A stretch of DNA of 64,000 nt from an archaeon (lineage in GTDB: Archaea > Thermoproteota > Nitrososphaeria > Nitrososphaerales > Gagatemarchaeaceae): NCBI GenBank assembly GCA_021819105.1, contig JAKASK010000001.1, positions 66,448 through 130,447 on the forward strand, given 5' to 3'. The translations under genes and the position numbers were made by a program. This document shows, piece by piece, positions 11,718 through 13,731 of the stretch (positions within the stretch are counted from its first letter, which is position 1; every line of letters starts with the position of its first letter). The notes beneath the pieces were generated by a model. It did no database searches. It saw nothing but the letters and a program-made list of their open reading frames with translations, and was not told the origin of the DNA.

Positions 11718-11792
11718 GGTTGATGGTAGCAGGGTGCCCGCATCTTGTCATCTAATTTGACCTATTTGCGCCCAGAAGTTCACCCTTTCCAC

Positions 11793-11797
11793 TATAT
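11793..11797 (+). promoter_or_regulatory. TATA box for the cdvA operon
   Basis: TATAT lies 25-29 bases before the cdvA ATG at 11822, the spacing for a leaderless transcript. This supports the chosen start. Confidence 0.5.
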
Positions 11798-11821
11798 CCG
11801 GAGCGCGCGCCTTTCATCATC

Positions 11822-12493
11822 ATGCGAGCTGAAGCTTTGGAAAAGCTGGTCGATAGGCCAGTGAAGGACAGCTACGGGAGGTACGTCGGTTTTGTTGTCG
11901 GGTTCTCCGTCGACACCTCCGGTGAGCTGAAGTCGATAGGCGTGGACCAGGGGAACGGAGAGTTCACAGAGTATCCCAGCCAGAGGGTCGTGTCGACGTC
12001 GGACGGTTTCGTCGTGATCCCTGCCTGGAGGGTCGAAAGCGACGCCCTCGGAAAGGAGATCGAAGGGGTGAAGAGGAGGGCGAAGGCGCTCCAGGACCTG
12101 GCCCGCGAAGGCGAGATACCCAGGACCATCTACGACGACATGATGGCGAAGTACTCGACCGAGGCGTCGAAGATCCAGGGCTCCTACAAGTCGCTGGCCG
12201 AAGGGATGGTGGTCAGAGTCGGCGAGCTCGAGGGGCAAAGGGAGTCGCTGCAGAGGTTCCTGGTGGACATCAAGGTCCAGTTCAGGGCGGGGGAAATAGA
12301 CGAGGCCGCCTTCAAGGTCGCGTCCGAGTCCTGCGAGTCGATGCAGACGAGGAACGCCCAGGAGATGGACGACCTTTCGAAGATGCTGAAGTCGGTCACC
12401 GAGCCCATATCTCAGCAGGCACAGCAGCCCCAGCAGCAGAGGAAGGTAGAGGAACCCCCGGTCCAGAAGGCAGTCCAGGCAACCGCAGAGTAG
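11822..12493 (+). CDS. cdvA: CdvA, archaeal cell-division scaffold protein
   Basis: CdvA binds membrane or DNA at mid-cell and recruits the ESCRT-III-like CdvB in archaeal division. The 223-residue protein has an N-terminal PRC-barrel (about 1-75: RPVKDSYGRYVGFVVG then DGFVVIPAWRVE), then a long charged coiled coil (about 78-200) containing GEIPRTIYDDM and RAGEIDEAAFKVA. Both of these closely resemble Sulfolobus CdvA as I remember it. The C-terminus is a Gln/Pro-rich linker ending in PPVQKAVQATAE, which may carry the CdvB-binding element. No cdvB or cdvC is nearby. Downstream genes encode an FtsX/FtsE-like ABC transporter on the same strand. Confidence 0.82.
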   Translation: MRAEALEKLVDRPVKDSYGRYVGFVVGFSVDTSGELKSIGVDQGNGEFTEYPSQRVVSTSDGFVVIPAWRVESDALGKEIEGVKRRAKALQDLAREGEIPRTIYDDMMAKYSTEASKIQGSYKSLAEGMVVRVGELEGQRESLQRFLVDIKVQFRAGEIDEAAFKVASESCESMQTRNAQEMDDLSKMLKSVTEPISQQAQQPQQQRKVEEPPVQKAVQATAE

Positions 12494-12556
12494 CCGGGGC
12501 TGGTTCTCGAGGGGGGAGAGACTACCCATGCCGTCCTTCGCGGAGGCACGCAGCCG

Positions 12557-13042
12557 ATGAAGGCGGGGGCTCTGCTCGAACGCGGCGGGCCGGTGGCTCG
12601 CTCGCTTAGGATCTCCGGCTCGACCCACGTCATGGCCGCGGCCATCTCCGCCGCCGTGTCGCTCAACGGGACCATAGCGCTGCAGACGCTGGGGGTCCTG
12701 GGACAGGCCGCAGTCGTCGCCGTGGTCTTCTTGTCCGTGGCAGCCTGCACGGCTGCGATATCGGTCGACATCCTCGGGAGGTCGACGAAGGCTGTGTCAG
12801 ACCTCCGCTCCATAGGGGCGTCCCGATGGAGCATCTCCTCTGCCCTGTTCGGGTCGATGCTGGTCTACGGGGCCGCCGGGTCCTTCCTCGGAGGGGTCGT
12901 CGGGGCTACGGCCGGCTCGGCGCTGTTCGGAGGCGCCCTCGGGGCCCAGACCCTGGCAGAAGTGCTCGCAGTCCTGGCCGCCTCGGTCGGCGCGGTCGCT
13001 GCGGGAGCCTACGCAGGAGGGAGGATAACCTGGCGCAGCTAG
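12557..13042 (+). CDS. FtsX-like membrane protein, minimal ABC permease
   Basis: The 161-residue protein consists almost entirely of three or four membrane helices (about 26-66, 96-125 and 131-155). It contains SDLRSIGASRWSISSALFGS, the cytoplasmic coupling helix pattern of FtsX/MacB-type permeases, followed by a glycine-rich helix. It has only the FtsX core and no sizeable extracellular domain. It begins 63 bases after cdvA and overlaps the start of an ATPase gene, so the two form a transporter pair. FtsX family membership is inferred from that motif and from the partner ATPase. The function might be mechanotransmission or lipid/peptide export. Confidence 0.7.
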   Translation: MKAGALLERGGPVARSLRISGSTHVMAAAISAAVSLNGTIALQTLGVLGQAAVVAVVFLSVAACTAAISVDILGRSTKAVSDLRSIGASRWSISSALFGSMLVYGAAGSFLGGVVGATAGSALFGGALGAQTLAEVLAVLAASVGAVAAGAYAGGRITWRS

Positions 13043-13731
13043 CGACGCTGAGGCCGCCGCAGGCGCAGGCCCTGGACCGCTACTCGGTGGTCCTGAGGCA
13101 CGTGCGCAAGTCCTACGGCGCATCGGAGGTCTACACCGACCTTCACTTCCAGCTCCTGAAGGGGACCTTCGTCGCCCTCGCAGGGCCGATAGGGAGCGGC
13201 AAGACGACGCTCGTGAACATGTTCGCAGGGATAGAGAGGCCGACGGAGGGTACGATCATCGTGATGGGCCAGGACATAACGGCGATGGACGACGACGCAC
13301 TGGCGGCGTTCAGGGCGAAGACCATCGGCCTCGTCCCCCAGGTCCAGACACTCATCCCCGAGCTGACGGTCTACGAGAACGTGGAGCTGCCGCTCTATTT
13401 CCTCAAGGTCGACAGGGACGCCAGGAAGAAGAAGGTGGACGCAGCCATGTCGAGGGTCGGCGTAAGCGGAGAAGCCAAGCGCGCAGCCGGGACTTTGAGC
13501 GTGGGCGAGCGCCAGATGGTCTCGTTCGCGCGAGCCCTGGTCAACGACCCACCGATCCTGCTCCTGGATGAGCCAACCGAGGCCCTGGACCCCCTGATGT
13601 CAGAGGTCGTTTTGGGGCTCCTCAGAGGAGACAACATGACCGAGGGGAGGACGATATTCGTCACGACCCACGACAGGAAGGTCTCTGACCTGGCCAGGCG
13701 GACCCTGCGGGTCAGCAAGAAGATACCGTAG
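13030..13731 (+). CDS. ABC transporter ATPase, FtsE/LolD/MacB type, with CTG start
   Basis: ATPase partner of the FtsX-like protein. It has Walker A GPIGSGKTT, Q-loop LVPQVQ, Walker B ILLLDEP, D-loop EALDP and switch His in TTHDRK. The signature reads LSVGERQ rather than LSGGQ, a notable change at the usually invariant second position. No ATG, GTG or TTG fits well at the 5' end: a CTG at 13030 has GGAGG just 5-9 bases before it and gives 233 residues overlapping the permease stop by 13 bases. The alternative GTG at 13087 has no visible ribosome-binding site. FtsE-like is a family-level call. Confidence 0.85.
   Translation: MAQLATLRPPQAQALDRYSVVLRHVRKSYGASEVYTDLHFQLLKGTFVALAGPIGSGKTTLVNMFAGIERPTEGTIIVMGQDITAMDDDALAAFRAKTIGLVPQVQTLIPELTVYENVELPLYFLKVDRDARKKKVDAAMSRVGVSGEAKRAAGTLSVGERQMVSFARALVNDPPILLLDEPTEALDPLMSEVVLGLLRGDNMTEGRTIFVTTHDRKVSDLARRTLRVSKKIP

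Follow-up and report, generated by a model that had tools for sequence, protein, structure and literature searches.

A cdvA gene joined to a minimal type VII ABC transporter in two archaeal orders, a candidate membrane partner of a division filament protein

Introduction

The extracellular domain of the bacterial permease FtsX controls wall hydrolases. In archaea that divide with the Cdv machinery, the membrane recruitment of CdvA filaments has been named as an explicit open question (PMC12818579). The filaments neither have a membrane-binding surface in their structure nor bind membranes in vitro, and the authors proposed an unidentified tether or activator (PMC12818579). An association of ABC proteins with ESCRT genes has been described for Asgard archaea, in which ESCRT operons are extended by a transmembrane protein and an ABC ATPase (PMC11237479). 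A linkage of cdvA with ABC genes is mentioned neither in a recent survey of ESCRT systems nor in a study of Cdv domain architectures, and we found no report of it in the open-access literature searched, in line with a first-pass annotation of the DNA studied here, which knew of no established partnership between Cdv proteins and an FtsEX-type transporter.

Here we analyze a cdvA gene that is followed by the genes of a small ABC permease and an ABC ATPase. It lies in a stretch of 64,000 nucleotides, called the window throughout, from a genome (G000) that is 65% complete and comprises 0.91 Mb.

Results

The locus and its gene products

The locus contains the following features, all on the forward strand:

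11757..11800, +, conserved promoter-like box TTGAC..AARTTCAC..CCACTATA, roughly 22-65 nt upstream of the cdvA ATG, seen in the alignment of 10 genomes from the genus
11822..12493, +, cdvA (module type), with a PRC barrel at about residues 13-65, coiled-coil helices at 68-193, a disordered Q-rich linker and the conserved C-terminal peptide PPVQKAVQATAE
12557..13042, +, short FtsX-like permease of 161 aa, with an N-terminal helix, four transmembrane helices, a coupling helix at 77-85 and a 4-residue TM1-TM2 loop
13030..13731, +, ABC ATPase of the FtsE/LolD/MacB type, with a probable CTG start preceded by GGAGG, conserved catalytic motifs and the signature LSVGE

An interval of 63 bp lies between the stop codon of cdvA and the start codon of the permease gene, and permease and ATPase genes overlap by 13 bp, provided that the ATPase begins at the CTG at 13030. 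The listed open reading frame opens further upstream, at 12826, and this is the start that ORF listers would pick. The CTG is the likely start, because nine aligned homologs from congeners have an ATG, GTG or TTG at this position and a GGAGG is located just upstream. Both the arrangement given in the first-pass annotation, i.e., three genes on the same strand with the last two overlapping, and its assignment to CdvA, FtsX-like permease and FtsE-like ATPase families were borne out by the coordinates, the Pfam and NCBIfam scores, and the fold matches.

The first gene encodes a true CdvA. Its product matches Pfam PF18822 with 78.5 bits (cut-off 30) and has a weak PRC-barrel match besides. A profile built from CdvAs of this type matches the solved CdvA of S. 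islandicus (9s9g) with an E-value of 3.7e-39, and the AlphaFold (AF2) model of the window protein superimposes on 9s9g and 9s9i with TM scores of 0.71-0.86 over the PRC barrel and the helices. The scores with the NCBIfam equivalog NF041007 are below its cut-off of 350 bits (104.6 bits for the window, 117 bits for the homolog in genome G316, see below). However, this cut-off marks a narrow clade, because it also shuts out the CdvA of G040 (81 bits), which is of the other type and is encoded directly after cdvB and cdvC.

The permease reaches 22.3 bits with the FtsX profile PF02687, just below the cut-off of 25.5, which two related permeases (L218 and L147) exceed with 29.6-30.6 bits; the homologs span 150-190 aa. 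The AF2 model (pLDDT 84) contains an N-terminal helix, four transmembrane helices, and a coupling helix, and TM1 and TM2 are joined by only 4 residues, so that an extracellular domain is absent. In profile comparisons the best match was LolE (E 1.2e-8), and LolF, HrtB, and MacB were also found. HrtB was on top of the Foldseek results, and the top eight matches were all HrtB, FtsX, LolC, or LolE; their E-values are weak (best 0.016), as expected for a short helical protein. The ATPase matches PF00005 with 119 bits, and it is close to MJ0796, MacB, and LolD. The residues of Walker A, Q-loop, Walker B, and H-loop are invariant among the homologs, and the signature is LSVGE or a close variant. The best NCBIfam model is FtsE (TIGR02673), with 170 bits versus a cut-off of 265 (264.85).

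From sequence and model, the two proteins are predicted to form a minimal type VII (MacB superfamily) ABC transporter, with a four-helix permease, a coupling helix, and an ATPase of the MacB/FtsE type; one trait of this type, the extracytoplasmic domain for mechanotransmission, is absent from the permease model. The FtsEX-like transporter of the first-pass annotation thus holds as a type VII pair related to FtsEX, but not as a bona fide FtsEX, which is ruled out by the FtsE score below the equivalog cut-off and by the lack of an extracellular domain. For the same two reasons a wall-remodeling role copied from bacterial FtsEX is unlikely.

The core pattern of the upstream box, AARTTCACNCNNNCCACTAWA, occurs with zero mismatches once per genome, and only before cdvA, in G000, G022, G009, and G016; G016 has a single further match elsewhere, with 2 mismatches. 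The pattern is absent from G005, a genome that lacks the three genes. Between cdvA and the permease gene no conserved element was found in the aligned genomes of the genus. A box solely in front of cdvA and none in this interval would fit transcription as one operon. The box as a cell-cycle promoter common to other division genes was rejected, because it was found only before cdvA and thus offers no link to cdvB, cdvC, or ftsZ. A scan for sigma-70 promoters and terminators and an Rfam search yielded nothing useful.

Conservation of the three-gene order

Among 300 genomes sampled from the order to which the window belongs, 27 have a strong match to the short permease (at least 49 bits). The intact unit, with cdvA as the immediate upstream neighbor of the permease gene on the same strand, was found in 24 of the 300, distributed over four families (f1, f7, f14, and f17), and every strong permease match that shares a contig with a CdvA (24 genomes) adjoins it. 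In two further genomes (G078 and G085) the CdvA runs into a contig edge, and the assembly of G071 yielded the strong permease match and no CdvA. A permease/ATPase pair standing apart from CdvA was not seen among the 300 genomes. A sample of 398 genomes of the phylum added one unit, in G316, which belongs to another class and another order. In this second order (family f31) six of eight genomes carry the unit, one of them (L220) with a CdvA split across two frames. Conservation thus extends to at least five families, which belong to two orders from different classes, and the gene order is not unique to the genome at hand. Most of the surveyed genomes are MAGs, and the named public records that carry the unit bear the labels Thaumarchaeota, Nitrososphaeria, unclassified archaeal MAGs and, in one case, a bacterium. 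A further 28 CdvA loci, the majority from other parts of Thermoproteota, had neither the permease nor the ATPase within 1.5 kb.

In representatives of the families the three genes are kept side by side between flanking genes that mostly differ. Exceptions are a gene for transcription factor B (TFB) common to f31 and f7, which is convergent with and adjoins the ATPase gene (L147:6525-7454, L250:9218-10156, and L086:12030-12911), and a UbiA-family gene in f14. Within the genus of the window the flanking genes are conserved, too. There, ten congeners have all three genes in order, and the distribution is patchy: in the congener G003 (L085) a CdvA of the same type lies without ABC genes and in reverse orientation, flanked by two of the genes that also flank the unit. 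The distance matrices of the three genes correlate pairwise with r values of 0.92-0.97, which was not reached in any of 2000 permutations, and dN/dS values of 0.03-0.37 reveal purifying selection on all three. That the three genes form one functional unit is well supported, and the conservation across families rules out chance adjacency.

Types of CdvA and links to division genes

In a phylogenetic tree the ABC-linked CdvAs of the window's order cluster with solo CdvAs from f1 (support 90/77). The CdvAs that are not of this type branch apart and mostly end in a W[LIF] motif, and the linked CdvAs of the second order branch below both groups. A single origin of all linked CdvAs is not rejected (p-AU 0.19), and likewise not demonstrated. 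In f7 and f14 both types can occur in the same genome, and the linked copy lacks the W[LIF] tail of the second one. The second CdvA gene of f7 (L164/G056 and L165/G042) is oriented divergently to its neighbors, which encode another FtsX permease, full-length at about 417 aa, and an ABC ATPase. The tail of the window CdvA, PPVQKAVQATAE, is conserved in the genus and unlike E3B, while the linked CdvAs of the second order end in EPIVVRV, EPLVVRL, or EPLVVKV, which by visual comparison resemble the crenarchaeal CdvB-binding E3B tails.

Genes for CdvB, CdvC, SepF, and FtsZ-family proteins are nearly universal in the genus of the window, and the cdvBC locus contains no CdvA in the four genomes examined (L205-L208). 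The congener G005, a single contig with 100% completeness, encodes CdvB, CdvC, SepF, and FtsZ-family proteins, and no CdvA was detectable. Hence, neither CdvA nor its ABC partner is essential for division in this genus. In G316, of which about 1.21 Mb of contigs were read, the ABC-linked CdvA is the only one found. The genome encodes SepF and four CdvB-like proteins, one of which has a C-terminal winged-helix-like region and lies beside CdvC, and phmmer searches with three FtsZ queries found no canonical FtsZ in this 1.21 Mb. G316 also encodes a 961-aa protein of the tubulin/FtsZ family (L287:12404-15286; PF00091, 34 bits).

Two further observations concern CdvB and CdvC. The winged-helix domain of CdvB has been reported to be absent from Thaumarchaeota (PMC8970359); CdvBs of f1 and f14 (L206, L207, and L210) bear a C-terminal winged-helix-like region, and the match of the L207 protein to the NCBIfam CdvB profile covers 18 to 258 of 260, with a score below the cut-off. 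The CdvC of G022 (L208:7017-9338) has an apparent intein in the Walker A region, and similarly long CdvC frames (about 800 aa) are present in G009, G012, G013, G017, G018, and G024.

Discussion

A role of the unit in cell division is suggested by the homology of CdvA, by the tail of the linked CdvAs in the second order, which resembles E3B, and by the presence of CdvB and CdvC in G316 together with the lack of a detected canonical FtsZ. The best evidence that a linked CdvA is part of a set of Cdv division proteins comes from the gene content of G316. Judged from tails and gene content, the link of the unit to Cdv division would be stronger in the second order than in the window: there the tail is another one, and a complete congener has no CdvA. 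The first-pass annotation had suggested an undescribed envelope module of archaeal division. A conserved unit of CdvA and ABC genes, unreported in the literature searched, is indeed supported, but division is its presumed role only, and a remodeling of the wall is improbable.

We propose, with a probability of about 0.5, that the ABC complex anchors CdvA at the membrane and gates its assembly or hand-off through the ATP cycle. The permease, probably a dimer like those of other type VII ABC transporters, would form together with the ATPase a minimal membrane complex that exposes almost nothing outside the cell. CdvA, which forms cytoplasmic filaments, would be the partner of this complex and would be held by it at the cell membrane. 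The ATP cycle might then gate the assembly of CdvA or its hand-off to CdvB and CdvC, in division or a closely related membrane-remodeling step. An action from the cytoplasmic side is expected because the permease lacks an extracellular domain, and since all ATPase motifs are conserved, an ATP-driven step is favored over a passive anchor. An integral membrane complex that is co-encoded with CdvA fits the role of the proposed tether, and the conserved operon offers a concrete and testable candidate in some archaea for the recruitment of CdvA filaments (PMC12818579). However, such a tether cannot be universal, because the CdvAs of Sulfolobales and ammonia oxidizers have no ABC unit beside them. 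A more far-reaching version, which we put forward only tentatively, is that the missing membrane tether of CdvA in these archaea is a stripped-down ABC complex of the FtsEX type, so that a type VII ABC machine would be coupled to a division filament in bacteria and in Cdv-dividing archaea alike, in the archaea exclusively from the cytoplasmic side.

The unit might instead serve membrane remodeling outside division, e.g., vesicle release or the repair of envelope stress, with a CdvA paralog. This is unlikely, although a second CdvA coexists with the linked one in f7 and f14, the linked copy lacks the W[LIF] tail of the former, and the unit is patchy in the genus of the window. In G316 the linked CdvA is the sole one found, accompanied by CdvB and CdvC and by no detected canonical FtsZ, and E3B-like tails are found on the linked CdvAs of its order. 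It is likewise rather improbable that the ABC pair exports or extracts a hydrophobic substrate, such as a lipid, a lipoprotein, or a haem-like molecule, with CdvA as a recruited regulator or scaffold that has no role in division. The neighbors of the permease in sequence and fold, i.e., HrtB, LolE/LolF, LolC, MacB, and YbbP, mostly move or extract hydrophobic compounds, and the motifs of the ATPase are intact. However, the relatives known from this class have large extracellular domains, which are missing from the permease, no periplasmic partner or substrate-binding protein is consistently encoded alongside, and the constant partner is a division filament protein, not an enzyme or a binding protein. 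An inherited gene order or hitch-hiking devoid of functional meaning is very improbable: flanks are shared within the genus and a TFB gene neighbors the unit in two lineages, but across families the flanks mostly differ while the three genes stay joined, overlap or nearly abut, and co-diverge, and each strong permease match on a contig with a CdvA lies next to it.

The reading of the ABC complex as an anchor and gate of CdvA can be set against the known systems. With the Asgard operons (PMC11237479) the unit shares an ABC ATPase and a membrane protein adjoining ESCRT genes. This parallel is only partial, because the Asgard operons involve Snf7 and Vps4 and not CdvA, and the likeness of the ABC proteins is one by description. 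The CdvA of Sulfolobus, which belongs to the Cdv/ESCRT-III system (PDB 9s9g, PMC12818579), has the same fold over the whole core, a PRC barrel and a helical coiled-coil. In contrast, the CdvA described here is encoded outside the cdvBC operon and together with an ABC permease and ATPase, and only the second order has an E3B-like tail, whereas the genus of the window has a different conserved peptide. LolCDE, HrtBA, and MacB resemble the ABC pair in the permease, with LolE as the best profile match and HrtB as the top fold, and in the ATPase, which is close to MJ0796, MacB, and LolD. However, all these transporters have extracellular domains and roles in transport or extraction, and we know of none that is encoded with CdvA. 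Bacterial FtsEX is likewise a type VII pair of ATPase and permease with a link to a division filament, FtsE is the best NCBIfam match of the ATPase, and the permease model resembles the transmembrane domain of FtsX. It differs in that the archaeal ATPase scores below the FtsE cut-off, the archaeal permease lacks the extracellular domain, and the filament partner is CdvA instead of FtsZ/FtsA. If the tether reading is true, the unit would represent a possible parallel between the division machines of bacteria and archaea.
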